From contig NZ_QUSX01000001.1 of NCBI RefSeq assembly GCF_003933245.1, forward strand, positions 1,240,001 through 1,304,000: a stretch of DNA of 64,000 bases, given 5' to 3'. The position numbers were made by a program, and so were the translations under genes. The DNA is from Maribacter algicola (GTDB lineage: Bacteria > Bacteroidota > Bacteroidia > Flavobacteriales > Flavobacteriaceae). Below the pieces are notes generated by a model. The model was not told the DNA's origin, ran no database searches, and saw only the letters and a program-made list of their open reading frames with translations. Positions 8,282-62,000 of the stretch are shown here, one piece after another. Position 1 is the stretch's first letter. Each line of letters starts with the position of its first letter.

Positions 8282-8965
8282 ATGCAAAGTACCGCCGTTC
8301 TTATTTTCGCGAACTCTTCCCAGGAAGAAAAGCGATACAAACCCCTTCAAAGGGGCGAGGTACTGTTCGATTCCTTGACCAATACAGTAATCCGGAAGGT
8401 CAAGCAATCAAAATTGACCTACTTCCATATATCCGAAAAACATCAAAAAGGTACTTCCTTTGGGGAACGATTTTCCAATGCGGTGCAAAGTGTCTTTGAC
8501 AAAGGGTTTGACAACGTAATTACTGTCGGAAACGACACTCCCCATCTTCAAACGGCACACATTACGACCGCCGCAAAGGCCCTGGCCGATGGCAAGACCG
8601 TAATTGGTCCTTCCTTGGACGGCGGTTTCTATCTAATGGGCATCCATAAGGCCGATTTTAACAGGGAGAACTTCCAGAATTTGCCATGGCAAAAATTCAA
8701 CCTGTTGAAATCGTTATTGGACAACCTTCAAGAAAATTCCTTTCCCATTGTTCAATTACCGACTTTTAGGGACATCGATTCCATTAAGGATATTCTTTCC
8801 TTGGTCAACCATATAAGGTCAATCTCCGTTTCGATACAAAGACTTTTTGCCCTTTGCCTTTGGACCAAACAACAATTTTTCCTTCTAGAGGAAAATTTAT
8901 ATACATCCATTTTACTCCAAAATCCCTATAACAAAGGGTCCCCAGTGTTAGTACATATCCAGTAA
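8282..8965 (+). CDS. DUF2064 / TIGR04282-like transferase of arsenosugar locus
   Basis: 227 residues related to the GT-A fold DUF2064 family (named 'rSAM/selenodomain-associated transferase 1', later linked to arsenosugar biosynthesis). Visible motifs are GNDTPHL, the metal/nucleotide-binding aspartate motif (usual form GxDxP), and GPSLDGGFYLMG, the family DGG signature. The C-terminal 40 residues (from about 187) are extra and rather hydrophobic compared with the usual core of about 200 residues. Expected to be cytoplasmic and to transfer a sugar or nucleotidyl group onto an arsenic-containing intermediate; the actual donor and acceptor are unknown. It is the first gene of a plus-strand series that continues into susC 60 bases downstream. 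Confidence 0.78.
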   Translation: MQSTAVLIFANSSQEEKRYKPLQRGEVLFDSLTNTVIRKVKQSKLTYFHISEKHQKGTSFGERFSNAVQSVFDKGFDNVITVGNDTPHLQTAHITTAAKALADGKTVIGPSLDGGFYLMGIHKADFNRENFQNLPWQKFNLLKSLLDNLQENSFPIVQLPTFRDIDSIKDILSLVNHIRSISVSIQRLFALCLWTKQQFFLLEENLYTSILLQNPYNKGSPVLVHIQ

Positions 8966-9025
8966 TATGTCCACGTAGGATTTTAACGCCTTCGTGTAAA
9001 GTTGAACTAACACCACCAAAAAAAC

Positions 9026-12000
9026 ATGAAATATGTATTGTGGGTCGTGCTATTTTTCATGACCACCATCAATTTTGCCCAAGAGAGCATATCGGGCACC
9101 GTATCCGATGTGTCAGGAGCAGCCCTTCCTTATGTGAACGTACTTGTATCGGGCACTAATAAGGGAACCATAACAAATGAAGAAGGCGCATACCGAATAA
9201 CCGTAACAGAAGGAAGCGGTAGTTTGAAGTTTTCCGCCATTGGATACGAGACCCAAATAATCCCTATTGATGTTACATCCGTTCTAAACATTGTGCTAAA
9301 AGAAGCATCGGAACAATTGGACGAAGTAGTATTGACGGCCCTCGGTTTAAAAAGGGAAACCAAAGAGCTGGGCTACGTGGTACAAAGTTTAGACGCGGAA
9401 GGGGTTGCGGAAGTAAAGGCAGTAAATTTTTTGGATAATCTCGCCGGAAAACTTGCCGGCGTAACCATAAGCCAAGGACCAACGGGAGTTGGATCGACCT
9501 CGAAAGTAACGATCAGGGGGGAAGCCTCGTTCTCCAACAACAATCCTTTATTTATCGTTGACGGAGTTCCCATTAACAATAATTCGGTCTTTAATTTCAC
9601 CAACGAAGCCGCCGCCGGTTTCCAGGAAATAGATTTTGGAAACGGGGCCATGGAGGTAAATCCAGATGATATTGCAGAAGTTTCCGTACTAAAAGGTCCC
9701 AGCGCAGCTGCCCTATATGGGACCAGAGCTTCAAACGGTGTTATAGTTATCGAGACCAAAAGCGGTAGAAACTCCAAAGGGATAGGGATAAATTACAACA
9801 CGAGTTTCTTTGTGGATACGGCATTTCAGTTACCCGATTTCCAAAACGAATATGGCCAAGGCCAATCTGGAGTCTTTGAATTTGTTGATGGTCTTGGAGG
9901 CGGTATCAGTGACAACATTACCTACAGCTGGGGACCAAGATTGGATGTGGGCAATTTAATCGCCCAGTTTGATAGTCCCGTAAACCTGCCGGATGGTAGC
10001 GTAGTCAGAGGGGGTGATACCGCACTCTACAATGGATTGCCCATTACACCAACGCCTTTTGTTTCACATCCAGAAAATCTAAAGGATTTTTATAGAACAG
10101 GGACCACGTTAATCAATAACATTGCCATTGGAGCTTCTTTTGAAAAAGGGGATTACCGACTTTCCGTTACCGACTTACGTAGTGAATCCATTATTCCTGG
10201 CGTGAATTTGGACAGGCAGACCATAAGTACCCGATTGGGCTTTAGACCTACTGAGAAACTAAAAATCAACACGACCATCAATTATGTGAATTCAAAGAGC
10301 GATAATCGTCCGTCCAACGGTTATGGCTCTGAAAATGTAAATTATTCCTTGGTGGGATGGGGCCCTAGGTCCCTAAATATGGAAAGTTTGCGGGATTATT
10401 GGCAACCTGGTTTGGAGGGTGTACAACAGTACTCTTTTAACTACACCTTCTTTGACAACCCGTTTTTTATTATGTACGAAAATAGAAACTCCTTTAACAG
10501 GGACCGTATTTTCGGGAATGTTTCTGCAAGTTATGATATCACGGAGCATTTGACGGCATCGGTACGGTCTGGAATGGATTATTCAAGTGAACTGAGACAA
10601 TTGAGACGCGCCTTTAGTTCCAATAGGTTTCAAAATGGCGGGTATGCGGAGCACGACGTATTTTACAGGGAGGTAAATACGGACTTTCTTTTGAACTATA
10701 CCAATCGGTTCAATAAATGGGCCTTGGATGCCAGTGTAGGTGGAAACCGGCTGGACCAAAAAGCTTTTACCTCACAATCCCAAGCTACCAGTTTGGCGCA
10801 ACCCGGTATCTTTAGATTGTCCAACGCAGCTTCGCCAGTTGAAGTCTTTGAGTTTGAATCCAACAAACGCATCAATAGTTTTTACGGACTGGTAAAATTG
10901 GGGTACGCCGACTTTCTATTTTTGGACGTTACCGGAAGAAACGACTGGTCAAGTGCCCTGGCAACGCCTATTTCTGTGGATAATACCTCGTTCTTTTACC
11001 CATCCGTATCCACAAGTTTTGTCCTTTCCGAAGTGGTGCAACTTCCAGCCGCAGTATCCTTTGCAAAACTGCGGGCCAGTTGGGCGCAAGTGGGGAACGA
11101 TACCAATCCCTATCAAACCACAAGCTCCTTTATAGCCCGTACGCCTTTTAACGGTCAGCCCACATTTAGCGATCAGAATACGATCGCAAACCCAAACCTG
11201 AGACCAGAACGCACTTCCTCCATTGAAGTTGGAGCGGATGTACGTTTTTTTGGCGATCAGTTTAGTTTTGATATATCCTATTACAATGCCCTCACAAAGG
11301 ACCAGATCATTTCGTTGCCTATTGGCATCTCTTCCGGGTACACCCAACAGGTGGTAAATGCGGGTAGTGTACGATCCAGAGGTGTCGAAATTATTGCAGG
11401 AATTTCTCCTGTATTATCAGAAAATTTCAGGTGGAACAGTACCTTGAATTTCAGTACAAACCGCGCCATCGTAGAGGACTTGCCCCAAGAAGATGGGCGA
11501 TTGACATTGGCCTATTCCAGAATCTATGATAGTCAAAACCAAACGGTATTTTTTCAGGTAGAGGAAGGAGGGCGCGTTGGCGATCTCTATGGCACAGGGT
11601 ATCTAAAAAATGACAATGGCGACTTTATACTTACCAACGAGGGCCGATACATTCCAGATAACGAACTAAGGAAATTAGGCAATTACAATCCAGATTTCAC
11701 GCTAGGGTTTAACAATCAATTCCATTACAAAAATTGGAACCTAGGTTTTCTACTCGACTGGCGCCAGGGCGGGATTATTGTTTCAAGGACGAGGGCCCTA
11801 GGAAATGTGGGAGGTCAATTGGCAGAGACTTCCTTTCGCCCGGAGGAAGGAATCGTTCCCCAAGGTGTCGTAAATATTGGAACGGATGAAAACCCTGTCT
11901 ATGAACCCAATACGGTAGCCGTTTCGGCTGAGAGTTATTATCGACAATTTTATGACCGAAACCACGAGGAAAACAATACCTATGACGCCTCTTTTCTAAA

Positions 12001-12229
12001 ATTAAGGCAGTTTTCCTTAGGCTATACATTTACCGACCTTTCCCTTTTTAACCAAAACGCGACCTTAAACCTGTCCCTGATCGGAAGAAACCTTTTTGCC
12101 CTAACGGAGAATCCGCATTTTGACCCCGAACAATTGGCGGTTCAGGGGCAGGGATTTATAAGTGGTGTCGAGGATATGTCCTATGCCACAACAAGAAGTA
12201 TTGGAATTAAAGCCGGATTTAATTTTTAA
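9026..12229 (+). CDS. SusC/RagA family TonB-linked outer membrane protein
   Basis: 1067 residues: signal peptide (1-19, ending AQ), carboxypeptidase-regulatory-like domain (about 22-95), TonB plug (about 105-240, with VTIRGEASF, LFIVDGVPINN and YGTRASNGVIVIETK), then a 22-strand-type beta barrel ending in a terminal aromatic (GFNF). This is the complete architecture of a SusC importer, which takes up large or scarce solutes with TonB energy in concert with a SusD lipoprotein. Its partner susD follows directly. Placement inside the arsS cassette, and not beside glycoside hydrolases, suggests that the ligand is an organoarsenical or related metabolite instead of a polysaccharide; that is inference. 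Confidence 0.93.
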   Translation: MKYVLWVVLFFMTTINFAQESISGTVSDVSGAALPYVNVLVSGTNKGTITNEEGAYRITVTEGSGSLKFSAIGYETQIIPIDVTSVLNIVLKEASEQLDEVVLTALGLKRETKELGYVVQSLDAEGVAEVKAVNFLDNLAGKLAGVTISQGPTGVGSTSKVTIRGEASFSNNNPLFIVDGVPINNNSVFNFTNEAAAGFQEIDFGNGAMEVNPDDIAEVSVLKGPSAAALYGTRASNGVIVIETKSGRNSKGIGINYNTSFFVDTAFQLPDFQNEYGQGQSGVFEFVDGLGGGISDNITYSWGPRLDVGNLIAQFDSPVNLPDGSVVRGGDTALYNGLPITPTPFVSHPENLKDFYRTGTTLINNIAIGASFEKGDYRLSVTDLRSESIIPGVNLDRQTISTRLGFRPTEKLKINTTINYVNSKSDNRPSNGYGSENVNYSLVGWGPRSLNMESLRDYWQPGLEGVQQYSFNYTFFDNPFFIMYENRNSFNRDRIFGNVSASYDITEHLTASVRSGMDYSSELRQLRRAFSSNRFQNGGYAEHDVFYREVNTDFLLNYTNRFNKWALDASVGGNRLDQKAFTSQSQATSLAQPGIFRLSNAASPVEVFEFESNKRINSFYGLVKLGYADFLFLDVTGRNDWSSALATPISVDNTSFFYPSVSTSFVLSEVVQLPAAVSFAKLRASWAQVGNDTNPYQTTSSFIARTPFNGQPTFSDQNTIANPNLRPERTSSIEVGADVRFFGDQFSFDISYYNALTKDQIISLPIGISSGYTQQVVNAGSVRSRGVEIIAGISPVLSENFRWNSTLNFSTNRAIVEDLPQEDGRLTLAYSRIYDSQNQTVFFQVEEGGRVGDLYGTGYLKNDNGDFILTNEGRYIPDNELRKLGNYNPDFTLGFNNQFHYKNWNLGFLLDWRQGGIIVSRTRALGNVGGQLAETSFRPEEGIVPQGVVNIGTDENPVYEPNTVAVSAESYYRQFYDRNHEENNTYDASFLKLRQFSLGYTFTDLSLFNQNATLNLSLIGRNLFALTENPHFDPEQLAVQGQGFISGVEDMSYATTRSIGIKAGFNF

Positions 12230-12239
12230 GAATAAGAAA

Positions 12240-13811
12240 ATGAAGTTTATATATAAAACAGTTGTAAATGGTATTCTTAGCTGCCACTCCGTGCTTTTAG
12301 AAACATGGTCTATGAGCAAGTGTATCTTTACTGTCGGTTCGAGCAGAATCCAGAACAATTGGATAAAATCAAAATTGAGCTTGATAGGTGTATTTGTACT
12401 TGTACTTTTGGGTACCACATCCTGTACCCAGGATTTTGAGGATATAAATACGAATCCAAATGCGCCCGTAAATGTACAGCCCAATCTGCTCTTGAGGCAG
12501 GTAATTTATGATTACGGGGAGCAAATGTCCTACGAAGGGTTTACGGCAGGCAATCTTTTGGGGCAGTATACCACGGCTTTGGATTTTAACCTTTTTGATA
12601 GGCATAATTTAAAATCGCCCCAACTTGGAGGAAATCCCTGGCCCATATTCTATCAGAATCTTAGGGATAATGAACTGATCTTAAATCTATCCCTTGAAAA
12701 TCCTTCCTTTAGGGTTTATGAAGGGCCAGCACGTATCATGAAGGCCTATATGGCCGCTGCCCTGACAGATCTTTTTGGGGATGTCCCCTATTCCGAAGCT
12801 TTTAGGGGAAATCAAGGTCCCGTCACGCCCGTCTACGATGCCCAGGAAGATATTTATATGGGTGAAAACGGAATATTCGATAATCTAACCAAGGGTATAG
12901 CGGCTATCCAGTCATATGATGGCAATATCGCTTTAGAAGGCGATATCCTGTTCAACGGAGATTTGCAGGGCTGGGTACGCTTTGCCAACTCCCTTAGGAT
13001 AAAATATCTAATGCGGGTATCCTCAAAAATGGACGTTTCCGCAGAATTACAATCTATTTACAATGCTGATACCTTCATAAAAGAAAACGGCCAAAATGCC
13101 ATTTTTAACTTTACCGATGGGGAACCCAACAATTTTAGGTTGGCAAGATTGCGAATAGGTGACTTCAACAATTTTGTCATGTCTGAAACCATGGAGGAAA
13201 TCCTTGTCGATCTAGATGATGCCCGTATATCGAGGTTGTTCAGACCCTTTGCCAATAGTGAAACTGGTGATGAATATAATGGTCTATTGAACGGTATCGA
13301 TGCATCCTCCACTACGGTTACCTTGGCCGATTACTCTTTGGCGGGCACCATATTCCGGGAAAATACAGGCTTATTGGATACCAATTTTATGACCAGTATG
13401 GAAACGTATTTCCTATTGGCGGAAGCGGCACAAAGGGGCTTAATTTCTGCCGATGCCCAAAACTTGTATGAAATTGGTGTGACCCAAGCCTTCGACTATT
13501 GGCAGGTGGACTTGCCAAGCGATTATCTTTCGGGAACCGGGGCAATGGAAAATGGCGACCCTTTGGAAAATATTATCACCCAAAAATGGATCGCCAATAT
13601 GATCAATGGTTATGAGGGTTGGGTCGAATATAGAAGAACCGGTTTTCCCCAACTCAAAACGATATCGGCCAGTCTAAACGATGACCTAATTCCTGTAAGA
13701 ATGCCCTACCCGGCGGAGGAAGAAGCGTTGAACAACCAAAATTATACCACGGCCGCCAACAACACGGATGGCAATAGTATCAATGTAAATGTGTGGTGGG
13801 ACCAAGAATAA
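12240..13811 (+). CDS. SusD/RagB-like outer membrane lipoprotein
   Basis: About 523 residues from the ATG at 12240. The mature part begins at Cys62 (codon 12423-12425) after the lipobox LGTTSC, and continues with SusD-like helices (LRQVIYDYGEQMSYEGF, LTDLFGDVPYSEAFRG, YFLLAEAAQRGLI), typical of the SusD-like_2 type. It caps the SusC barrel outside the cell and binds ligand. The start is uncertain. The frame is open from 12162, inside susC; ATG 12240 gives an abnormally long 47-residue leader before the hydrophobic core; ATG 12312 or TTG 12375 would give more normal signal peptides. The leader looks non-coding, as if DNA had been inserted in the signal sequence. Confidence 0.85.
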   Translation: MKFIYKTVVNGILSCHSVLLETWSMSKCIFTVGSSRIQNNWIKSKLSLIGVFVLVLLGTTSCTQDFEDINTNPNAPVNVQPNLLLRQVIYDYGEQMSYEGFTAGNLLGQYTTALDFNLFDRHNLKSPQLGGNPWPIFYQNLRDNELILNLSLENPSFRVYEGPARIMKAYMAAALTDLFGDVPYSEAFRGNQGPVTPVYDAQEDIYMGENGIFDNLTKGIAAIQSYDGNIALEGDILFNGDLQGWVRFANSLRIKYLMRVSSKMDVSAELQSIYNADTFIKENGQNAIFNFTDGEPNNFRLARLRIGDFNNFVMSETMEEILVDLDDARISRLFRPFANSETGDEYNGLLNGIDASSTTVTLADYSLAGTIFRENTGLLDTNFMTSMETYFLLAEAAQRGLISADAQNLYEIGVTQAFDYWQVDLPSDYLSGTGAMENGDPLENIITQKWIANMINGYEGWVEYRRTGFPQLKTISASLNDDLIPVRMPYPAEEEALNNQNYTTAANNTDGNSINVNVWWDQE

Positions 13812-13817
13812 TCTAAA

Positions 13818-15158
13818 ATGAGCGACCTAGTATTTTGGCAGTGGGGATTGATTCTAGTATCTAGTTTGGTACTGTTTCTTCTTTCCCCATACGCAAAAGA
13901 TACCAATCAGTTTTTTAATGCGGTTCAAAAAAGGGGCACGCCCAATACCTTTGTCCTTATGGGCAGTTTGATTATCTCATGGATTTTTGCCAAAAGCATA
14001 ACCAATGCCGCCAACCTAGGTTTGGAATTTGGTATCGTTGGTGGGATTGCCTATGCGGGTTACTATGTGTCCTTTGCCGTTGCGGGTTTCATTATATACC
14101 AAATGAGGGTAAAAGCAAAATATACCAGTATCCATCATTTCTTGACCTCCAAGTTTGGAAAAAGAGCGGTTTCCCTGTTTTCTATGTTGATTGCCATTCG
14201 ATTGTTCAATGAAGTTTGGAGCAATACCATGGTCATTGGGTCCTATTTTGGGGAAGCTGGGTCGAGTCCGTATTACTGGAGTATCCTGATTTTTACCTTG
14301 CTAACATTGGCCTATGTTATCAAGGGCGGCATGAGCAGTTCCATTTTTACCGATGTCGTACAAATGGCCTTGTTCACCCTATTACTAGTGATAATACTTC
14401 TTACCATATACGGACCTAAGACCGATTTTATGGTAAAGGACACGGTCAGTTCAGGTATATGGTCCTTTGAAACGGGACTAAACCTATTGTTCGCCGCGAT
14501 AATTCAATCCTTTAGTTATCCCTTTCACGACCCGGTTCTAACGGACAGGGGGTTCATCAGCAGCCCTAAGGTGACTTTAAAAAGTTTTCTAGGAGCCAGT
14601 TTTCTTGGTGCCCTATGCATAGTCCTTTTTAGTTTTATAGGGATATATGCGCAGTCCGAAGGCTTAGCTGGACAGGCCGCTGTAGAAGTGGGAAAGGCAT
14701 TTGGTATCATAGTCCTACTTATCATAAATTTCATCATGATTACCTCGGCCGCCTCCACTTTGGATTCCACATTCTCCTCCTTCTCTAAATTAATAGCGAT
14801 CGATTTGAAATTTGGCAACAGTTTGAGCATTGGAAGATGGTCCATGGTCCTTATTGCCATATTGGGAACGATTCCCGTTTTTTTGGATGCCGAAATTTTA
14901 TCGGCTACGACCATCAGCGGCACTATGGTCATTGGGCTTACGCCGATATTCATTTTTTGGAAAGGAAAGGCTCCTAAAATTAGTTTTCATCTGAGCGTTA
15001 TGTGCGGATTGTTCTTTGGCCTATTGCTTGTTTTTAAAAGCTTTCCGGAGCAATTAATATTTACAGAAGGAAAATATGCCGATTTGCTTTGGATCAACGT
15101 CTGGGGAATACTTTGTTGTACACTTTTATATTTTATACCTATATGGAGCAAAAAATAA
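13818..15158 (+). CDS. sodium:solute symporter family protein
   Basis: 446 residues, almost wholly hydrophobic, with about 12-13 predicted membrane spans and the long SSS-type helices (for example SLIISWIFAKSITNAANLGLEFG and FNEVWSNTMVIGSYFGEAG). The overall plan is that of the SSS/LeuT-fold Na+-coupled carriers such as PutP or PanF, though the family signatures are divergent. It starts six bases after the susD stop and its end overlaps the next gene by 16 bases, so it is firmly part of the arsenosugar operon. The simplest reading is that it carries across the inner membrane whatever SusCD brings into the periplasm. The substrate is unknown. Confidence 0.85.
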   Translation: MSDLVFWQWGLILVSSLVLFLLSPYAKDTNQFFNAVQKRGTPNTFVLMGSLIISWIFAKSITNAANLGLEFGIVGGIAYAGYYVSFAVAGFIIYQMRVKAKYTSIHHFLTSKFGKRAVSLFSMLIAIRLFNEVWSNTMVIGSYFGEAGSSPYYWSILIFTLLTLAYVIKGGMSSSIFTDVVQMALFTLLLVIILLTIYGPKTDFMVKDTVSSGIWSFETGLNLLFAAIIQSFSYPFHDPVLTDRGFISSPKVTLKSFLGASFLGALCIVLFSFIGIYAQSEGLAGQAAVEVGKAFGIIVLLIINFIMITSAASTLDSTFSSFSKLIAIDLKFGNSLSIGRWSMVLIAILGTIPVFLDAEILSATTISGTMVIGLTPIFIFWKGKAPKISFHLSVMCGLFFGLLLVFKSFPEQLIFTEGKYADLLWINVWGILCCTLLYFIPIWSKK

Positions 15159-16348
15159 AGGACTTAGGAACCAAGGAAGGTACATTGCTGCTTTTTGGTG
15201 GCGTCTATAGCAACCTACAGGCCATAGAAAAATTGATTTTACTAGCCAAGGAAGCGGGTATCCCCCCAGAAAACTGTATCTGTACAGGAGACATCACAGG
15301 ATACTGCGCCCAACCCGAAGAAACGATTCAAGCCTTTAAAAATTGGGGCGCATTGTCGATCGCTGGCAACGTAGAAATACAGCTTTCTAACGATAGTGAG
15401 GACTGCGGTTGCGATTTTAAGTCGGGCGGACGTTGTGATGGATTCTCAAAGATGTGGTTTCCCTATACAAAAATGAACCTATCGCAAGACTCCCTCGAAT
15501 GGATTTCGGCCCTGCCCGAGTACCTTAGTTTTACGTATGCGGGTAAAAAAGCGACCGTAGTTCATGGAAACTATGGCAATGTATCGGAATTCATATTTAA
15601 ATCCAATGCACAGGATAGTAAGGAAAGGTCTTTTCAAGCAACCAACAGTCAAGTAATTATTGCTGGACATTGCGGTTTACCATTTCATCAGAAAATAAAA
15701 GATAAACTCTGGATAAATCCTGGGGTCATTGGAATGCCCGCAAATGATGGAACCACTAGGGTATGGTATCTTCTTTTGGAACAATCTGATGGGGAAATCG
15801 TTTTTCACCACCGTAGCTTTGAATATGACCATAATAAGGCCCAACGAAGAATGCTGGACAATAATTTGCCAGAGGAGTATGCGGACACTCTAGTTTCGGG
15901 TATTTGGGACAATATGGAAATACTTCCTGAAGTGGAGAAAATGGGTCAAGGAATTCCCATAGGATTGGATACAACTATAAATCAGAACATAAAATCACAA
16001 ACAAATAAAACAATGGCAGATTCTTATTACGACCCCAAGGACTTGAGAAAGTTTGGTAAAATAACAGAATGGAGTGAGGAACTAGGTACCAAGTTCTTTG
16101 ACTATTACGGAAAAGTTTTTGAAGCCGGTGCCCTTACGGCGAGGGAAAAATCCCTTATCGCCCTAGCCGTTTCCCATGTAGTAAAATGCCCTTATTGTAT
16201 AGATGCCTATACCAAGGACGGATTACAAAAAGGGATAACCAAGGAGGAAATGATGGAGGCCGTGCACGTAGGTGCGGCCATTGAAAGTGGTGCCACCTTA
16301 GTCCACGGAGTACAAATGATGAACAAATACAACAAACTATCCATGTAA
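15143..16348 (+). CDS. metallophosphoesterase-like / AhpD-like peroxidase fusion protein
   Basis: The start chosen is the ATG at 15143, inside the symporter's last codons. Residues 1-285 resemble the calcineurin-like phosphoesterase fold, but several metal-ligand motifs are altered: GGVYSN (19-24) instead of D-x-H, GNVE (75-78) instead of GNHD, GHCG (175-178) instead of GHTH; GD (49-50) and HG (141-142) remain. A Cys-rich loop DCGC...C lies at 87-98. Residues 291-402 are a carboxymuconolactone decarboxylase/AhpD-like domain with CPYC (Cys349, Cys352), of the arsenosugar biosynthesis-associated peroxidase-like kind. These are normally two genes. Here the frame is continuous through an AT-rich linker that looks like an intergenic leader ending in ATG at 16013. 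Confidence 0.82.
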   Translation: MEQKIKDLGTKEGTLLLFGGVYSNLQAIEKLILLAKEAGIPPENCICTGDITGYCAQPEETIQAFKNWGALSIAGNVEIQLSNDSEDCGCDFKSGGRCDGFSKMWFPYTKMNLSQDSLEWISALPEYLSFTYAGKKATVVHGNYGNVSEFIFKSNAQDSKERSFQATNSQVIIAGHCGLPFHQKIKDKLWINPGVIGMPANDGTTRVWYLLLEQSDGEIVFHHRSFEYDHNKAQRRMLDNNLPEEYADTLVSGIWDNMEILPEVEKMGQGIPIGLDTTINQNIKSQTNKTMADSYYDPKDLRKFGKITEWSEELGTKFFDYYGKVFEAGALTAREKSLIALAVSHVVKCPYCIDAYTKDGLQKGITKEEMMEAVHVGAAIESGATLVHGVQMMNKYNKLSM

Positions 16349-16398
16349 AGGGCCGTAAATATCCCAAAAATGAAGTTTGATTTTTAAATACAGAAATT

Positions 16399-17454
16399 AT
16401 GGCAACAAAGTCGTTAAAGGCGCAAGGAGATGAATTGGCGGTTTCCAACAAACAATTGGAAATTCTGAACGGAGGTATTTTTGCCGATGGGGAACTCCCC
16501 TATTTTAAGGATAAGATCCATCAAATTGATCAGTTCCCGTTGCGCCCCAGGAAATTGGAAATACTGCAGATCAATGTAGGATATATGTGCAACCAGGTCT
16601 GTGAGCATTGCCATGTTGATGCCGGTCCGGACCGAAAGGAAATCATGACACGCGAAACCATGCAACTATGTCTGGAAGTCATTAGAAACACCGGCGCACA
16701 TACCTTGGATTTAACTGGTGGGGCCCCAGAAATGAACCCAGATTTCAGATGGTTTGTTGAAGAGGCAGCCAAAGCTGGTATACAGGATTTTATTGTCCGA
16801 TCCAATTTGACCATCATTAGGGCCAACAAGAAATACCATGATTTGCCGGATTTCTTCAAAAAACATAATGTACACGTAGTATCCTCAATGCCCCATTGGA
16901 CTCGGGGTAAAACGGATAAACAACGTGGGGATGGTGTTTTTGACAAATCCATTAAAGCGCTGCAGGAATTGAACGAGAGAGGTTATGGCATGCCGGGCAG
17001 CGATTTACGGTTGGACTTGGTCTATAACCCTTCTGGAGCCTATTTGCCTGGAGACCAGGGGGCTATGGAAAAAGACTTTAAAAAGGCCCTCAAGGAAGAT
17101 TTTGGTATCGAGTTCCATAATTTGTTCGCCATCACAAATTTGCCCATTGCCCGCTTTCTGGATTACTTGATAGCTTCTGAAAATTACGAAGACTATATGT
17201 ATGCACTTGTGGAGGCATATAATCCGGCAGCTGTTGCCAATGTGATGTGCAGGAATACCATTTCCGTGAGTTGGGATGGATGGCTATACGATTGCGATTT
17301 TAATCAAATGCTGGATTTAAAGGTCGCCAGTAAAATAAAACATATCAAGGATTACAACGAGGATATTCTAAACGATAGGAATATCATCATTTCCCAACAC
17401 TGTTATGGCTGTACGGCCGGTGCCGGCAGTAGTTGTCAGGGTACTGTGGCTTAA
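16399..17454 (+). CDS. arsS: arsenosugar biosynthesis radical SAM protein ArsS
   Basis: 351 residues. The radical SAM cluster motif CxxxCxxC is at Cys64, Cys68 and Cys71, followed by the TGGAPEMNP region for SAM binding. The C-terminal DUF3641 domain carries Cys335, Cys338 and Cys346 (CYGCTAGAGSSC), probably a second metal or auxiliary cluster site. This is the hallmark enzyme of the 'rSAM/selenodomain' family, shown in cyanobacteria to be needed for arsenosugars and thought to join a 5'-deoxyadenosyl group to a dimethylated arsenic species. It starts 50 bases after the fusion gene and ends at a strong terminator. All cysteines are encoded as Cys, with no in-frame TGA. No arsM methyltransferase neighbours it in this window. 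Confidence 0.92.
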   Translation: MATKSLKAQGDELAVSNKQLEILNGGIFADGELPYFKDKIHQIDQFPLRPRKLEILQINVGYMCNQVCEHCHVDAGPDRKEIMTRETMQLCLEVIRNTGAHTLDLTGGAPEMNPDFRWFVEEAAKAGIQDFIVRSNLTIIRANKKYHDLPDFFKKHNVHVVSSMPHWTRGKTDKQRGDGVFDKSIKALQELNERGYGMPGSDLRLDLVYNPSGAYLPGDQGAMEKDFKKALKEDFGIEFHNLFAITNLPIARFLDYLIASENYEDYMYALVEAYNPAAVANVMCRNTISVSWDGWLYDCDFNQMLDLKVASKIKHIKDYNEDILNDRNIIISQHCYGCTAGAGSSCQGTVA

Positions 17455-17464
17455 GCCTCCCCTA

Positions 17465-17489
17465 ACCCCTCCAAAGGAGGGGTATTTTT
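17465..17489 (+). terminator. terminator after arsS
   Basis: Stem CCCCTCC (17466-17472), loop AAA, GGAGGGG (17476-17482), then tattttta. It lies 11 bases after the arsS stop. The flanking cctcccctaacccctcc is similar to common flavobacterial REP-type sequences, so this may be a REP element serving as terminator. Confidence 0.75.
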
Positions 17490-17560
17490 ATTCTACTTTG
17501 GTGGTATCAGACATGAACTATGTCAAGTCACAAGTTGTTAATCCTTAAAATTGTTCACAT

Positions 17561-17582
17561 AAACCGACCACTTGGTCGGTTT
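17561..17582. promoter_or_regulatory. candidate TetR operator 1
   Basis: Perfect 10-bp inverted repeat, arms AAACCGACCA and TGGTCGGTTT around a CT centre. Upstream of the TetR gene; typical size and symmetry for a TetR-family operator. Core GACC-N4-GGTC is repeated at 17693-17704. Confidence 0.65.
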
Positions 17583-17692
17583 TCATTTTTAAAAAAGTAG
17601 TAGTTCATCGGGTTTTTGAACGTTCGCCGATTTTTTTCTTCATCATATCCAAAGAATCGAATTTCACCCAGCATCGGTCGGTTCTTTGTATA

Positions 17693-17704
17693 GACCAAAC
17701 GGTC
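17693..17704. promoter_or_regulatory. candidate TetR operator 2
   Basis: GACCAAACGGTC repeats the GACC-N4-GGTC core of the dyad at 17561-17582, and lies 23 bases before the ATG at 17728. A further half-site GGTCGG occurs at about 17677. Its position supports placing the TetR start downstream of it. Confidence 0.5.
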
Positions 17705-17727
17705 GGATTAACCCAAATCTTGAAATC

Positions 17728-18345
17728 ATGGATAAAAATTTAAAACGCATGGCTACCATGCACCGCATGCAAACCGCTGGATTGGAACTATTTTATGCAA
17801 ATGGGTATTATGCCACCAGCGTTGACGACATTCTGAAAAAACTATCCTTATCCAAAGGTGCCTTTTATTACCACTTTGTATCGAAAGAGGATTTCTTTAT
17901 ACAAATCATTCAAAACTTATTGGCGAGAAAAATATACAGCGTACTAATTGAACCTATAGAGGGCCATGACAATCCCCTTGAGCAAATAGTCGATTGTTTT
18001 GAAGACGCTTTGCAAACCGCCGTTCACAATGACATGGACTTTGGTTGTGTCCTCAATAATTTCTTGACCGAATTTCGCGGAAAGGACCAAAAAATAATGA
18101 AACATCTTTGTGATATATTTTCCATTTGGGAGGTAAATCTAGTTTCAGCCTTGCAAAAAGGGAAGTTTAATGGCTACGTAGATCGCCATGTAGATTGTGA
18201 GGCGGCAGCCACTTATTTAATAAGCTCTTATTTTGGTGTTCGTACCTTGATGGTAGGAACTACCCCTAGTGCCAGGAAATATCGCTTTATGAGCCAATTA
18301 CGAGTTTATCTAAAATCCTTGGAGCCTAAAAAAGTTGTCGCCTAG
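17728..18345 (+). CDS. TetR/AcrR family transcriptional regulator
   Basis: 205 residues from the ATG at 17728. The frame is open from 17686, but that earlier start would place the operator-like dyad inside the gene and add a non-homologous N-terminus. The N-terminal helix-turn-helix is clear (YYATSVDDILKKLSLSKGAFYYHFVSKEDFF); the C-terminal ligand/dimer domain is of the usual all-helical type. Two dyads with the same core lie upstream, indicating autoregulation, and a similar dyad precedes the first gene of the arsenosugar locus. It may therefore sense an arsenical or a locus metabolite. Its stop shares the tetranucleotide CTAG with the stop of the convergent GT9 gene. Confidence 0.9.
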   Translation: MDKNLKRMATMHRMQTAGLELFYANGYYATSVDDILKKLSLSKGAFYYHFVSKEDFFIQIIQNLLARKIYSVLIEPIEGHDNPLEQIVDCFEDALQTAVHNDMDFGCVLNNFLTEFRGKDQKIMKHLCDIFSIWEVNLVSALQKGKFNGYVDRHVDCEAAATYLISSYFGVRTLMVGTTPSARKYRFMSQLRVYLKSLEPKKVVA

Positions 18346-51553: not shown

Positions 51554-51560
51554 CTTTTGA

Positions 51561-51630
51561 GGCATCGAGTGGATTAGAACCAGTATAAAACTCTTGCAGG
51601 AGTTCCGCCTTCCCGTTCGGCCACAATGCC
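51561..51630 (-). pseudogene. degenerate tRNA-Cys copy
   Basis: On the minus strand it aligns along its whole length with the intact tRNA-Cys (same 70-base core, acceptor arms GGCATTG/CGATGCC with one wobble, GCA triplet in the loop). Damage: the anticodon loop has eight bases (CCTGCAAG), the variable loop is one base short, the T stem has a C-C mismatch (ACTGG/CCACT), and the T loop is TTCTAAT in place of TTCGAAT. No encoded CCA. It looks like a decaying tandem duplicate lying seven bases after folB. Function as a tRNA is unlikely. Confidence 0.75.
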
Positions 51631-53020: not shown

Positions 53021-56000
53021 TTATCTATATAAAGTGAAATGGCCAACAAATTCCCTACTATCTTCCTCCCCGTTCAATTGAATGACGTACCAGTAATCTC
53101 CGGTTGGTAATTCCTTGCCTTCGTATCTTCCATCCCATCCCTTGGCATCATGGGCCTGTCTGGAAACCACTCTACCATAACGGTCATAAATCTTTATTAG
53201 TATATCCGGGAATTGCTGAATATTTTTTGGAATCCAGAAGTCGTTTTCACCATCACCATCCGGAGTAAAGAAGTTAGGAATATCGACGTCAATGAATTCC
53301 ATGAAGATGCTGGCAATCATCTCACATCCGTTTTGGTCCACTACCCTAACCTCGTACGTATCCGTCCTCATAATGTAGAACGTATTGTCGTTTCCATTGT
53401 CAACACCATCAAAATAATAGGTGTATTCTGGACTACCTCCCTCGGCAATTGCCGTTATCTCGTTTAGGCTTCGTTGTTCAAGTAGCAGGGTCAAAGGTTC
53501 AAAACTTTCAATGGTGAAGTCTACCGTAACCAAACAGCCATTTGAATGCGCAATGGTGATATAGTGGTTTCCTGGAGCAATGTTCCTAAAGTCTGGGTTG
53601 AGTTGCAGCGCAGAAGCATCCGTACTATCCAATGCGTACATCACATCCCCAATGAGGCTTTCATCCTCCAAGGTGATGTTCACGTAATTGTCCGGAAGGT
53701 CTCCCGTACACACATAAACAGGTTCAACCGTGGCGTTAAGATTCACACCTGGTTCTATATCCACGACCACATTGGTCTCACAGCCATTGGCATCCCTAAC
53801 GAAAATCAAATAGTTGCCGGCGGCCATATCCGTAAAGTCGATTCTACCCTGAACAAAATCCGCATCGTCATTTGAATTCAGTGCGGTGCTATATGGAGCT
53901 GTACCTCCTGTTATGCTGAGAGATATAGCTCCATCCTGACTGTCCACGCAAATTTCTGGAGTAGCGGTAGCATTCACCATTAACATAGATGGTTCAGTAA
54001 TCGTATACTCCAAATACTCGAAACAACCATTTTGATCTTGGGCTATCACTATGTAATCTCCTGGTTCCAAATCTGTAAACGTATTTACGGTGTCGAACTG
54101 GTTCAAGTTGGGGGAAATCGCGTATTGATATCCACCGGAACCGCCAGAAAGCGTAACTGTAATACTACCGTTTCCTTCTCCTTCACAGGTTACATTGACT
54201 ACCTCATCAACATAGGTCAATGGAACAGGTTCCGTAATGATAACCTCCTCTGGCAACGTGGTACAATCCTCACTTGTCACAGAGACATAATACGTGCCTG
54301 CAGGCAGATTTCTAAATTCGCCAATGGATGTTGGACCGGCAATTCTTGAGGCAACGCTTAAGGAAGCATCGGTAAACAACTCGAACTGATAGTTGCCAAG
54401 CCCTCCAAAAGCATCGGCATAGATAATGGCTGTACTTTCGCCCGTACAATTGATATAGGCAGCAGATTGGTCCACCAACAGCACCAATGGGTCGATCATG
54501 TCTTCCGTAATTGCATTCGATTGAACTGCATCACAACCATTAACAGCGTCCCTTACAAAGTACTGGTAGGTGCCCGCTCCTAGTGTTCCGGTTGCAGGTA
54601 ATCCCATTGGATTGCTTGTCATTGGCATAAATGTGATACCGTCCGCACTGTACTCGTAGCTTCCACTTCCTCCTGTAGCGGTAAGTTCAAACTCCGCACC
54701 GGTAGCACAGGTCAATGGATCGGTCCGTATCAATTGAGCTCTTACCGGAGTAGGTTCTATGATTTCTACCGTGTTGGTAGTCACGTCACATTCCCAGCCA
54801 TCAGTAACCGTTATACTATAGATGCCTGTTCCCAAATCGTTGAAATTAGGGCTTAGTTGCGACGCCGTAGAGAAAAGAATCGTCGTTCCGTCCGCATCAA
54901 TATAGTTCAAGATATATTCATAAGAACCGCTTCCTCCGGCAACCGTTATATTTGCGGTAACCGTAGCGCCCATATCGCCATAACATGCCAAATTGGTCAC
55001 TAATGGAGTGGCGTTTGCAACTATGGGTGTCGCGGGGTCAAGTACCACCGCATCCGTATAAACACAACCTGCTTGGTCCGTTACCGTAATGTCATAGGTA
55101 CCCGCGGAAAGACCGTTGAACACATTTGCATACACATTGTTTTCAGTAAACGTATTGGTTCCATTGGTGATGGAAATGGTATATGGTCCAAACCCACCTT
55201 CTGGAACTACACGAATTTCGCCCCTATCGTTGGTACAAGTTGGCTGGGATAGAACGTCCACAACGGCCGTCAGTGCCATATCCGGAGAAGCTATGGTGAC
55301 CATATTGGTATCTTCGGAACAGAAAGGAACATCCGTTTCCGTAATTGTGACGTAATAATTGCCACCGGAAAGACCTCCAACAACCCTAGGGTTGACGGAC
55401 GTATCCGTACTCACCACTCCGCCAACAGGGTTACCTGCAGCATCGAATATTTGATAATTGTAATTCCCTGTGTACCCTGTGATGTTTATTTCCAATTCAC
55501 CATTGGAATCTCCAAAACATGTAACCGGAGTAACTGCAGTGGCTGTAGCCCTAATGAAGTCATACGGTTCTACATTGTAGGCGGGCGTATCAAAATAACA
55601 TCCTGTGTCCACATCGGTTACCCTAAATGTGTATGAACCCGTTGTCAATAGATCAAAAGTAGCCGTGGTGGCCGTAAACCCTGTTTGTACTGCATTTGTA
55701 TTTCCTATAGGCAATAACTCGTACATATAATTATGTGCCAAACCATTGTCCGAAACCGTAATGGTAACCGTTTCATCATTTGTACACGTGATGTCCACAT
55801 CTGTAGAAACCAATGCCGTAAATCTATTGATTGGCTGAATGGTGACGATATCCGTTGCGATACATCCATTGGCATCCCTAACATAGACCGTGATATTTTG
55901 CACCGTACCGTTGTCAGCGATATTGAACGTATTGGCAGATTGGTAGGTTACATTATCCAAACTATATAGATAAGGTGCAGTTCCCGATGGGCCGATTGGT

Positions 56001-59000
56001 GGTGTCACTCCATTATCGACGGTTACCGTAACAACGGCCGTATTGATGCTGTTATCCGGAGCGCAATCAAAAGTTGTAGCCGTCGCACTTACCATCAAGG
56101 AGTCGGGTTCCGAAATACTTTCGCTCTTTCTGTCGTCACAACCCAGGCCGGAAATCACCCTTACCTGATAATCCCCAGCGGCCAAATTACCGAATATTGG
56201 GCTGGTCTGTGGACCGGCGATCGGGTTTACCAAGTCGGAAATGTCGTATAACTCGTAAAGATAATCTGGGTTTCCATCCGTAGCCGGATTTAAAATTGCC
56301 GTAATACTACCATCGCTTCCCCCCGCACAACTTACATCCACAATTGTGGCATCCAATAATACTGGTAAAATTGGAGCCTCCAACGCTTGTGAAATGGTCT
56401 TTTCACAAATTGGGTTGCTTGTGTCCAAGTCACGAACTAGGAAATTGTAATTACCTACCTGAACAAGGTTCGCAAAAATCCCCGTTGTGTTCGTAATGGT
56501 TGTTGTACCATCTGGATAAGTGATCGTGAATTCAAGGTTTGAAGAGCTTCCGGTAACATTTACCGTGATTTCACCACCAGGATTTACGGTACAATCGATT
56601 ACCTTGTCCACTGTAGTGGTCAAATTCATTTCCTCGTACAATAAAACGGCCGGTGTTATTGCGGTACATCCCCACTGATCCGTAACGGTTACCTCATAAC
56701 TGCCAGCTCCCAGTCCGGAGAAAATTGGTGTATTCTGGGGAGCACGGAAATTGGAACCGTTCAATAAGAGTTGATACGTATAGTTGGAGCCCTGACCTCC
56801 TACGGCCAAAACTTCAATCTCTCCTTGCAAATTGGTACAGTTTTCCTGATTTACCTGCAAACTGGCAGTTATAGGAGTTGGATCTACCAACACAATAGTG
56901 TTATCGATCAATTGCTCACAACCTTGGGCATCCCTTACCCAAGCTTGGTATGTTCCTGCGGATAGACCTCCTAAAGAAGGAGAGGCCAAATAGTCCGATG
57001 GGGCACTTGGAGCTGCGATACCAATGTAATAGGTATAACCTCCCCATCCACCAGTAACATTTATGATTTCTATGATGCCATCATTACCTGGAACACACGT
57101 AATTTCGGTGATATCGATAGCCCCAGTAATCGCAGCAGGTGGTCCTGCAATTGTAAACGCCTCCGTATTTTCGCAGAAAGGGTTATTGTCCTGCGAAATG
57201 GATACATAATAACTTCCAGCCGGTAAATTGATGTCGGCCATTGGGCCGTTGGTGGCCTCATTGCCAGTTACCACGGAAATATCGTCGGCAGTATTGGCCA
57301 AGGTTCCGTTGGTATCGTAAACTGTCCAAGTAAAGCCTCCTGGATAAGTTGCATCAACCAATTCAAAGTTGACCGCACCTGTAGATGTTCCATAACAAAC
57401 CACATCGCTTGTCTTGGCAACGTTAATTGTAAAAGTATTAGGTTCCAACAAGGTTTCAGATGCAGAGATGATACATCCTGTATCTATATGTCTCGCCAAA
57501 ATGGTATACGGTCCAGCCGCCAAACCTGGGAAGACATTGGATACTTGATAGTTCGAACCATTATCGATACTAAATTCGAATCTCGAAGGGTCCCCTAACG
57601 TAGACACTACGCTCATGGTCAATTCCCCGTCGTTTCCTGGGTTACATGTAACCGTATTGGTAATACTGGCCGATGCGGATATCAATTCGTCAAACGGAGC
57701 GATAACCGCTGTCGTTGAGCCTAAACAGCCGTTGCTGTCATACACATTGATAGTATAGCTTCCCCCGGCAAAATCGGTTTCAGTATATACGGGATTCGTT
57801 CCCGATTGAACAACCACCGGAGCCTCTACGGGTACCGTGTTGGGGTCGTCCTCTTCTATAAACTCATACCTCACGTAGGTTCCTGAACCTCCTGTAATTG
57901 CAGGGGTATCTATGGTAATCGTTGCATTGTTTTCGTTGTTTCCAATCGTACAGGCAAAATCTACCACTGTTGCATTCACATTGGCGATGATTTCTGGCTG
58001 TGTAATTACTTGGGTAACATCCATAAAACAGCCGTTTGCCGCTGTAACCCTTATGGTATAGGTGATTCCCGGAGCAATCAAACCTTCTAGCCCTTGGAAC
58101 GTGGCCCTTGTAGCCGTACTGGTCGTTGGAGCAATAGGGAAAGTGGCACTGCTTCCAGGACCTGAAATTATCTCATAGGAATAAGGTCCGGTACCTACAT
58201 CCGTACTTGTTACCGTGATGGTCCCGTCATCGGCACCGTTACAGGTAACATCGGTAAAACTGGAAACACTAATGTTTGGCGTTACCGCTGGCGAAACATT
58301 TACTACAATGCTGCCCAAACAATTGGGTATGGCCGTACTGGTGTCATATACCGTTACAGTATAGCTACCATCAATGCTGGCACCTGTCCATGTGATACTT
58401 GAACCGCCCATTGCTGCTCTAGCTTGGTCCACTGCACCGGGCCCGTCAATCTCATAATCGTAGGAACCTGATCCTGCAGTAACATTAATGGTAATTTCGG
58501 CATTGTTGGCAGGAGCTACCTCACAATCCAATAAGGTGGTTAAACTAGCATTAAATTGTAATGGGGGTTGAATATCAAATGTTTCAGTAACTGAACATCC
58601 GTTCAAATCCCTAACCTCAATTTCTTGGGCCAATCCAGAGTTAAGTCCCGACACCAAATATTGGTTGCTGCCATCAAACGTAAAGTTTTGGAAGGCATTT
58701 CCGTTCACTCGAATTTGGAACGGTGCCGAAGCGACCAATGGATTATCCAGAGTAACCAATACTTGGAACGTTCCCTCGTCCACACATTCATCCACTAGGG
58801 ACAAACTAATGATTGGGCTTGGGTCTTCCAGTACCGTAATCGGCCTTTGGAAAATACATCCATAGGCATCCTTAACGTAGACTATGTAATCACCGGCCTC
58901 CACATTCGCTGAAGTGGCACTTACCCAACCTGCATCACCGGCCAAAGGTGCAGGAGCCGAATCCAGTAAATATTGATATTCATACGGAGCCGTTCCGTTT

Positions 59001-62000
59001 CGTCCCGCAGCGGTAATGATGCCCGCATTGAGATTACAGTTGTCGTTTTGTGGAGAGGCAACATCCAAATCCAGCGCAAAGGCGGATTCCCGTATCGTAA
59101 AAGTACCTCCATCCACGGAACAACCATTGTTAGGTCCACCCACCTCCGTGAGCAACAAATAGTACTCACCAGGAGGCAAGGTTGCAAAATTGCTTACCGT
59201 TACGGAACCAGGTGGGTTTACACTGGATGTACCCATATACCCGGTAGTTACATTGGATTGCCTGTTGAAAACTTCATATTGTACATCGGTTGCAGCAACA
59301 TCATACCCGGAAAAGGTAAAGGAGATATTACCGTCCGCAGATCCTGTACAACTTACATTATTAACAGCGTCAAGCGTAGCCACCATGGATGATGGCGTGT
59401 TGATGGGTGCAGCGGCCTCCTCAAAATAATAACAATTGGTAGTTAAATCGAACACCACAAAAGTATACGTAATGCCAGGTGTAAGTCCGGTAAACGTTGA
59501 AGTAAAGCCTCCAAGAACATCCGGAGCCTGATAGCTGCTCGAATACGGAGCAGCATACGTTTCCAAAATAGCAAACTCATAATTTCCACTTCCTACGGCA
59601 GCACCTACAGACACTACTGCAGTTCCCCCTACCAAACAATCTACAGTGGCCGTAGATACATCAATATCCAGGTCATTGGGTGGTGATGCAATGATTTCGG
59701 TTGTATAGGAAGCACAACCGTTGGCGTCTACTACATCAATTTGATAAATACCGAATTCCAATACCGTAAAAGTATGGTCTCTTGTACCCGGTGTTGTGAT
59801 ATGGGTTTGTGTAGGAATCCCATTGTTTCCAGTTAAAATATAGGTATACTCGGCAGTTCCGCCTGAAACCCCAGAAATGGAAATTTCACCGGGATTCGTT
59901 GTCCCCAATCCAGCATCACAGGTAATTGGCACGTCTGAGGTAGTATAAACAATAGGGCTAGGTTCAGAAATGGTTACCGGAAATGGTGCGGAAACACAAC
60001 CTTTACTGTCCGTAATGGTCACCTCATAATTGCCCGCTGGTAAACCTGTGGTCTGGGTTCCATAATTGGTAGGGCCAGAAGTTTCCACTACATTGACTAC
60101 ATAAGGAGGTACACCCACGGAAGTATCTATTTGAACATCCAAGGAGCCCGTGCTTTCACCATTACATAGTATATCCGTTGGAACTACATTGGCAATTACG
60201 GGGGTTTGGGCTTCCGTAATCGTAATAGGATTGGTTACCACCACACAATTTACGGGCGTAGAGGTATCCGTGACCCTAAATACAAAGGTTCCAAATAGGT
60301 TGGTCGTGAATACGTTCCCAACAAAATTCGTATTTGCATAGGTAGTTCCCCCATCATTGGACCATTCATATGCGTATGTTCCTGAACCTCCGTTGGCATT
60401 TATCGTGACGGATGCATCCATCAAACACGTTAAATCGTTCGTTAGGACCGCATTCGCGGTTAATTGGGGGTTTATCGTTACCGTTTGGGTATTGGGTGCC
60501 AAAGGACATCCTAGGGCATCCCTTACTTCAATATCATAAGAGCCTGCGGAAAGATTACTAAAGGTAAAGGTTGTAGCCGTTGTTGGTGTTGGAGCCAACC
60601 AAGGGCCGCCGTTTATCCTAAACTGATATCCTCCATTTCCACTGGAAACATTCACGACAATTTCACCATCATTATTTCCACTGTAACAGGTTGTGGGTTC
60701 TGCCGTAAACACGATTGGGTCCGTTGGGTTTATGGTGAGCGGGGCATCGATTACATCCTCGCAATTGTTTATATCACGCACACGCACCAAATAATCGCCT
60801 GGGATAAGTCCGCTGAAAGTGGTATTGCTGCCATTGGTGGCAAAATCAAAACCTGCAATAATGCCTCCGACACCATCTTCCAGTTGATAGCTGTAGTTGG
60901 GGGTGCCACCTATAGCCGATGCAATGATAACTCCTCCATCTGTACATGTCGCCTGACTATTGATCGATGCCGAAGCTACTACAGGAGTAGGTTCGTTGAT
61001 CGTTTGGTTCAATGTAACCGTACAACCTGCAATTGGGTTATCAACGTCCCTAATTGAAATTGTATAGTTACCTGCGGAAAGACCGGAAATAGTTTGTGGG
61101 GCCGTTGTGGTACTTCCTAAAATTGTGATAAAATTATCCAAACTATATTCAAAACCTCCAGCACCAAAATTATCGACATCAAAAGTAATGGAACCATTAT
61201 TGTCACCATTACACGTAACATCCATAGCAGATACGATGCTGGCTTCGAAGGCATTTCCTGGCTCAACGGTTACATCAATAGTTACCGTTTGAGGACATTG
61301 TTCTGGAAGTTGAGTAGCAATTATATTATCGATAACAACGTCGTTTCCTGCCGTCGCAGTTCCAATAGTTCTTATTACAATGTCAAGATTGGTCTCTGCA
61401 CCCGGGTTCAAAGTTATATTGTAATTTTCCCATATATCAGGATCCGTACTCTTGGGAATATTACCGGTAGGAATGCTTGCTATGACCGTACCCGATGAGT
61501 TTACCAGTTGAACATCAAGATTGGCATCTGCTCCAGTAGAACCTACAAACTTGAGGTTGAAAACATCAATTGAAATGGTGATGTCCCTGTTTGGAATCAC
61601 TTCTATTCCCCTTTTTGCATAAACGATGCCGTTGACACCGGCTACACCACCAATATTAATGGCAAGGTATCTTCCATTTGGGTTGCCAGACTGTTCGTTG
61701 GGGACCAACCATGTGTAAGGGTTTACGATTGTGTTTGCAACTGAATATTCCCCATCCTGTATATGTGTATCCGTACCAAAACTTGGACAACTACTAGGGC
61801 TTCCATCTTGGGGTTCATAACAGAATAAGGGGTCAATTTCCGTAATGCTGGTTGGTGCACCAACTCCAAAATCCTCGCGCAACAAAACACTTGGAGAAGG
61901 AGCCGCATTGCTTATATAATCGACAGAAATCGTATGTGTGCCGACTGGAACATTGTTAAATATATTGGAATCTGCAGGTGTGTTAGGAGTCCCATTCAAG

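Follow-up and report, generated by a model that had tools for sequence, protein, structure and literature searches.

A conserved variant of the arsenosugar cassette in Maribacter algicola that joins ArsS to a SusC/SusD pair and a symporter, with comparative evidence for organoarsenical uptake

The flavobacterial arsenosugar cassette comprises an AhpD-like protein (TIGR04169), ArsS (TIGR04167), a rhodanese (NF045521), a DUF2064 protein (TIGR04282), PNP, ArsM (NF038099), DUF547 and a family 2 glycosyltransferase (GT2; TIGR04283). ArsM is the methyltransferase that normally supplies ArsS, and arsenic methylation is usually seen as detoxification of inorganic arsenic. The work cited for the adenosylation of arsenic by ArsS is reportedly that of Cheng and colleagues from 2021. 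ArsS is presented as a radical S-adenosylmethionine (SAM) enzyme that adenosylates arsenic, that is, as a forming enzyme (PMC12159101). Here, we describe a locus at positions 8282..18345 of a 64,000-nucleotide stretch of the Maribacter algicola genome (NZ_QUSX01000001.1, positions 1,240,001 to 1,304,000; hereafter the window), which shares with this cassette ArsS and an AhpD-like domain, the rhodanese, DUF2064a, PNP and GT2 genes standing at a second locus. It differs from the cassette in that ArsM was not found in the genome, AhpD is fused, and SusC, SusD, a symporter and a cysteine-bearing phosphoesterase-like domain have been added. The operon is a real, conserved and, as far as we searched, previously unreported cassette variant; no description was found of a SusC/SusD or TonB system together with ArsS, ArsM loss or an ars-operon phosphoesterase, in a search that left subscription journals mostly outside. 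Judged from sequence comparison, the evidence for organoarsenical uptake is good, and we give a probability of about 0.6 to the reading that the operon serves to take up a pre-methylated organoarsenical and activate it, so feeding ArsS.

The locus is made up as follows.

8282..8965, plus strand: DUF2064b (PF09837, 78 bits; TIGR04282, 104.8 bits, cut-off 134)
9026..12229, plus strand: SusC-type TonB-dependent outer-membrane receptor (TIGR04056, 575.7 bits, cut-off 368; TIGR04057 signature, 54.1 bits, over cut-off)
12240..13811, plus strand: SusD-type lipoprotein (PF12771, 289 bits; lipobox-like LGTTSC, judged by eye)
13818..15158, plus strand: SSS-family symporter of a module-specific subfamily (PF00474, 27.8 bits, weak; gathering score 22.8)
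15143..16012, plus strand: phosphoesterase-like domain (PF12850, 40 bits)
16013..16348, plus strand: AhpD-like domain, in frame with the phosphoesterase-like domain (TIGR04169, 193.1 bits, cut-off 120)
16399..17454, plus strand: ArsS, radical SAM arsenosugar-biosynthesis protein (TIGR04167, 440.7 bits, cut-off 300; CNQVCEHC at residues 64-71)
17465..17490, plus strand: terminator-like hairpin, then a T-rich stretch, 3′ of arsS (perfect 8-nucleotide arms, 17465-17472 and 17476-17483)
17728..18345, plus strand: TetR-family regulator (PF00440 (TetR_N), 50.7 bits; PF16925, 34.5 bits)

All seven plus-strand genes of the original prediction were found at their coordinates, but the phosphoesterase-like and AhpD-like proteins that it had listed as two genes are encoded by one in-frame gene (15143-16348) with TIGR04169 at the C-terminal end. 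The starts of SusD and of the phosphoesterase-like protein were picked by eye (the open reading frames themselves open at 12162, with GTG, and at 15089), and that of tetR was set by alignment (open reading frame from 17686). The first six genes succeed one another with gaps of 60, 10, 6, -16 and 50 nucleotides, and 273 nucleotides containing the terminator-like hairpin lie between arsS and tetR; thus, the first six genes look like one operon and the TetR gene like a separate unit. Family searches of the seven gene products gave no glycoside hydrolase or lyase match, and a plain polysaccharide utilisation locus was rejected for this lack of any carbohydrate-active enzyme match. Genes of ars resistance operons (ArsR, efflux pump, arsenate reductase) were likewise absent from the family matches of the seven products and the two flanking genes. 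Among 80 named ArsS loci, the nearest ArsS relative is that of Maribacter sp. PR1 (96% identity).

The functional link between ArsS and the SusC/SusD pair and symporter, as originally predicted, is supported by a neighbourhood survey of ArsS loci, in which the adjacency is not unique to this genome and recurs in two gene orders and outside the order (loci, genomes and contigs carry our own handles, L, G and C). An orthologous SusC (>1000 bits) occurs at 15/80 named loci, several of which end at contig ends, and always with SusD (truncated at a contig end in L097). The order DUF2064b-SusC-SusD-symporter-phosphoesterase-like(-AhpD)-ArsS is found in the window and in L033, L034, L035, L036 and L072; the order AhpD-ArsS-DUF2064b-SusC-SusD-symporter-phosphoesterase-like, mostly followed by rhodanese, DUF2064a and PNP, is found at ten named loci, L097 being incomplete. 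L086 has the symporter and phosphoesterase-like genes without SusC/SusD, and further genomes beyond the 80 named loci show both orders plus variants. Outside the order, the module is present in five genomes, one of which again carries the phosphoesterase-AhpD fusion before ArsS. A unique or chance neighbourhood was therefore rejected, because the module recurs in other genomes. Samples of 395 genomes of the order and 395 of the phylum, with the symporter called at E up to 1e-60 and ArsS over the TIGR04167 cut-off, gave the same association at the genome level. ArsS is present in 43/395 genomes of the order and the symporter in 15/395, every one of the 15 being ArsS-positive and none of the 352 ArsS-negative genomes having it (hypergeometric p 2.9e-16, phylogeny ignored). 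In the phylum sample, a strong phosphoesterase-like protein (344-510 bits) occurs in 9/395 genomes; four of these had already been counted as ArsS genomes in the order sample, and the other five are ArsS-positive too (9/9). In G487, G702 and G746, ArsS lies on a different contig from this gene; such co-occurrence without linkage speaks for a shared function rather than mere neighbourhood.

As in known SusC/SusD uptake pairs, the two genes are adjacent, with susD beginning 10 nucleotides after susC, and have the family domains and signature; the difference here is that the operon has no carbohydrate-active enzyme match and its conserved partner is ArsS. The closest solved chain to SusC is 5fq6_B (SusC BT_2264; 439 bits), which we take to be a peptide-taking SusC, a match that leaves room for ligands other than glycans but names none. 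The closest solved structure to SusD is 5j5u_A (E 1.9e-39). The symporter resembles SLC5/SSS sodium symporters in its similarity to PF00474 and TIGR00813, and differs from them in the weakness of the match and in belonging to a subfamily confined to ArsS genomes in the order sample. In a 16-sequence alignment (A1), its relatives are 71-83% identical to the window protein.

Independent evidence that points the same way comes from the distribution of ArsM and from the phosphoesterase relatives in ars operons (see below). The standard flavobacterial cassette has an arsenosugar-type ArsM (NF038099; 570.7 bits for the L071 protein), whereas no ArsM was found in the genome of the window by NF038099 (at 1e-12) or by the generic model NF008823 (at 1e-10), and replacement by a generic ArsM was thus rejected for this genome. 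In the order sample, NF038099 is over cut-off in 6/15 symporter genomes versus 24/28 other ArsS genomes (Fisher p 0.004). Among named genomes, it is over cut-off in 5/15 with an orthologous SusC and also in that of L086, in 12/12 comparators picked for having no module at the locus, and in 44/50 more without a symporter at the locus, the other six having split, partial or generic matches. When all were pooled (78 of the 80 named genomes, L075 and L079 being left out), ArsM of any kind was not detected in 17/31 symporter genomes versus 2/90 others (Fisher p 1.6e-10, kinship ignored), and the arsenosugar-type ArsM in 19/31 versus 7/90. In the 31 genomes searched with NF008823, this model is over cut-off only in G399 and G390, where replacement by a generic ArsM does hold, the G390 copy having one internal stop. 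Where a match fell below the NF038099 cut-off, it was classed by hand: those that were split or partial (G771, G787 and G818) were scored as ArsM present, and those of G276, G291, L092, L096 and L099 (no symporter; about 95-107 bits) as generic ArsM; these five, G379 and G150 lie outside the NF008823 search. In the genome of L048, the ArsM reading is broken in two, which would fit a frameshift (G771:C17:121013-121976). L092, L096, L099 and L160 (G276) are cassettes without ArsM and without a symporter at the locus; the only ArsM-like match in their genomes lies away from it and scores about 95-107 bits.

An ArsS tree of 121 genomes requires at least 13 changes of symporter state and 13-15 of ArsM state. 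A Pagel-type likelihood comparison, which rests on an ArsS gene tree obtained by quick search, favours symporter-dependent rates of ArsM change (likelihood-ratio test 24.7, p 4e-6; with rates at bound, 38.5, p 4e-9). These results bear on the idea that the module imports an arsenic-free acceptor (a sugar, lipid head group or peptide) for the arsenic derived from ArsS, ArsM having been lost for another cause. The peptide-taking relative of SusC, the weak nearness of the symporter to a choline transporter and the two symporter-free genomes that are also without detected ArsM would fit such an acceptor; however, it would not predict that ArsM absence tracks the module, and the phosphoesterase relatives in ars operons also speak against it. 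We consider it unlikely.

The rest of the arsenosugar pathway seems still to be present in most of these genomes. The second locus of M. algicola (L156) reads rhodanese-DUF2064a-PNP-GT2, with no ArsM between PNP and GT2, and its TIGR04283 glycosyltransferase (C1:1884049-1884711) scores 222.8 bits, over cut-off. Of 17 symporter genomes without ArsM whose PNP neighbourhood was examined, 15 (that of M. algicola, G201, G286, G395, G396, G398, G399, G401, G403, G405, G406, G407, G306, G314 and G322) retain DUF2064a and PNP, and only ArsM is absent from its place after PNP, with small variations; the other two, G188 and G218, are differently arranged, and the count was made without G390 and L097. 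The generic ArsM of G399 stands at another place in its genome. ArsM directly follows PNP at 13/14 ArsM-bearing loci, the exception being G382, where it is at the ArsS locus. Thus, the pathway seems to have been kept while its methylation step was dropped, and the frequent absence of ArsM speaks more for the import of a methylated precursor from which arsenosugars are made than for their breakdown. The salvage or remodelling originally predicted would nevertheless be compatible with these data.

The AlphaFold2 model of the phosphoesterase-like protein (predicted local distance difference test 82.3, predicted template modelling score 0.85) has a fold nearest to SapH (3qfn, the best PDB match) and related phosphodiesterases, and its sequence is nearest to 3rqz (E 6e-14). 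In 20/20 family members, DxH of motif I is replaced by G-x-Y and the second His of GHTH by Gly, the motif reading GH[C/A/S]G; D50, N76, H141 and H176 are retained, and C55, C88, C90 and C98 are invariant. A complete two-metal site (DxH, GD, GN, H and GHxH) is therefore not present in these 20 proteins, and the reading of the protein as an intact phosphoesterase was rejected for these changes. By the usual assignment of residues to metal sites in the superfamily, the losses presumably leave one of the two metals without its ligands. The state of this site also bears on the proposal that the module imports arsenosugars or arsenosugar phospholipids for catabolic breakdown, with the phosphoesterase cleaving a phosphodiester arsenosugar. 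SusC/SusD ligands are usually larger than those that porins pass, which would suit such substrates, as would a fold nearest to phosphodiesterases encoded in the same operon as ArsS. On the other hand, the altered site in every family member, the retention of PNP, DUF2064a and GT2 as in the biosynthetic cassette, the lack of a glycoside hydrolase among the seven products and the role of ArsS as a forming enzyme (PMC12159101) make catabolic salvage improbable.

A possible origin of this protein is indicated by seven weak homologues in the phylum sample (108-113 bits), only one of whose seven genomes has ArsS. Six of them were compared, G710 being left out; their DxH and GHTH motifs are intact, and they have the CGC motif in common with the window family but neither C55 nor C98. 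By family search, L210 contains ArsR, ArsM, a canonical phosphoesterase relative and Acr3, and L211 contains ArsR, ArsM, an aquaporin and a canonical phosphoesterase relative; L207 and L209 resemble these two by eye (ArsR-like and Acr3-like neighbours), and L206 and L208 do not. Hence, 2/6 relatives examined sit in confirmed ars operons. The proteins of L206-L211 are canonical metallophosphoesterases with a DCGC motif, and no NCBIfam model names their family. The window family is like the calcineurin-like phosphoesterases of ars operons (L210 and L211, with canonical motifs) and SapH/YfcE in fold, CGC motif, D50, N76, H141 and H176, and differs from them in the changes of motif I and GHTH described above and in its invariant C55 and C98, which are absent from the six relatives. 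We infer that the phosphoesterase-like protein descends from an arsenic-linked phosphoesterase and has changed its function, and propose that it binds or reduces dimethylarsenic for ArsS. Its fusion with AhpD is also seen in L033, L034, L035, L144, L145 and L202; the two are separate genes in L036, L072 and L146. The ars-operon relatives, together with TetR-type control, would fit a stress response in which toxic methylarsenicals are taken up and turned into harmless arsenosugars without nutritional use, arsenosugars being less toxic. It is hard to see, however, why a cell should spend energy on importing a toxicant, and the operon has no ArsR or Acr3 match, so that this detoxification trap is the least probable of the readings considered.

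The TetR protein is AcuR-like by NF051457 (76.9 bits, below cut-off), and the palindrome AAACCGACCACTTGGTCGGTTT stands before its gene. Two sites were noted in this region.

17561..17582: probable TetR operator, a 10-nucleotide perfect inverted repeat, AAACCGACCA-CT-TGGTCGGTTT
17691..17706: a further site with a weaker match to the operator motif (2 mismatches)

The operator core (up to 2 mismatches) is present before tetR in 10/13 loci examined and before the first operon gene in 4/11, against a background of 63 sites across all loci (2.99 Mb). A first operator pattern gave two matches, both distant from the operon and within chance; the second was defined after the repeats of the window had been viewed, that is, chosen post hoc. 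The first gene of the operon, predicted as the DUF2064 gene of the cassette, does belong to that family (PF09837), but it is a divergent paralogue rather than the canonical copy: its TIGR04282 match is below cut-off and covers only positions 65-189 of the profile, i.e., the second part. The KTRL block, a conserved feature of 77 DUF2064a proteins, is missing from the columns conserved across 30 DUF2064b proteins, and the genome encodes a canonical TIGR04282 protein (DUF2064a) at another site (C1:1885621-1886172, 201.8 bits). DUF2064b also occurs at loci without the module, e.g., L038-L041, and is therefore no marker of it.

Some arsenosugar loci that keep ArsM have another large outer-membrane receptor, OMP_b-brl_4 with CarboxypepD_reg (by Pfam on three of four), which is perhaps an alternative porter.

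L038, 4509-7628: OMP_b-brl_4-type receptor
L045, 12169-15288: OMP_b-brl_4-type receptor
L063, 11868-14981: OMP_b-brl_4-type receptor
L100, 14884-18015: OMP_b-brl_4-type receptor

In many cassettes, ArsM is followed by a fatty-acid-hydroxylase-type protein (similar to OlsE; L060, 13734-14624) or by a PiT-like transporter, so labelled from sequence and not from a family search, hinting at arsenolipids or phosphate handling. Elsewhere in the window, a 3630-amino-acid open reading frame (53021-63913, minus strand) that contains SprB repeats as well as a type IX secretion signal domain encodes a giant surface protein of the gliding or adhesion type. Near tRNA-Cys, ARAGORN gives a tRNA whose type is undetermined and whose anticodon has two bases (51559-51630, minus strand).

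From the published role of ArsS and the gene content, a route can be proposed in which dimethylarsenic is imported, prepared, adenosylated and completed. SusC and SusD would capture a pre-methylated organoarsenical at the outer membrane in a TonB-energised step, and the symporter would move it across the inner membrane. The phosphoesterase-like/AhpD fusion would bind the arsenical via its cysteines and bring it to the reduced dimethylarsenic form, which ArsS would join to a 5′-deoxyadenosyl group; the rhodanese, DUF2064a, PNP and TIGR04283 glycosyltransferase of the second locus may then complete an arsenosugar-like product. A cell that has the importer would no longer need ArsM, and TetR would control the locus. 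Several observations weigh against this route. For a molecule as small as free dimethylarsinate, there is no obvious need of a SusC/SusD pair, and the closest solved match of the symporter, of the choline-transporter type, is weak (E 1.3e-6), covers part of the protein and names no ligand. ArsM is still present in 14/31 symporter genomes, and in the 78 named genomes, some of which are incomplete metagenome-assembled genomes, only the ArsS locus was used to score the symporter. Phylogenetically independent pairs gave 3.7 in the same sense versus 0.1-0.5 in the opposite one, of 8, too few for significance; another count gave 2.7 versus 0.2, of 5, in the same direction and also too few. Finally, the 350 nucleotides upstream of the operon in the window yielded no operator-like site.

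If methylated arsenic is indeed imported at the expense of energy and ArsM has been given up, arsenosugar-type compounds would be of value to the cell, and methylated arsenic would pass between organisms. The locus would then open the fate of algal organoarsenicals to genetic study, give a new symporter subfamily a function and offer an example of a hydrolase turned to another use. At somewhat short of even odds, this may extend to marine Bacteroidota more widely, which would scavenge arsenic pre-methylated by others through the SusC/SusD pair and sodium symporter and pass it in reduced form via a thiol-rich former phosphoesterase to ArsS, so that arsenosugars would be made with no methylation of arsenic by the cell itself, ArsM could be lost and arsenic would be handled not as a poison but much like a nutrient.

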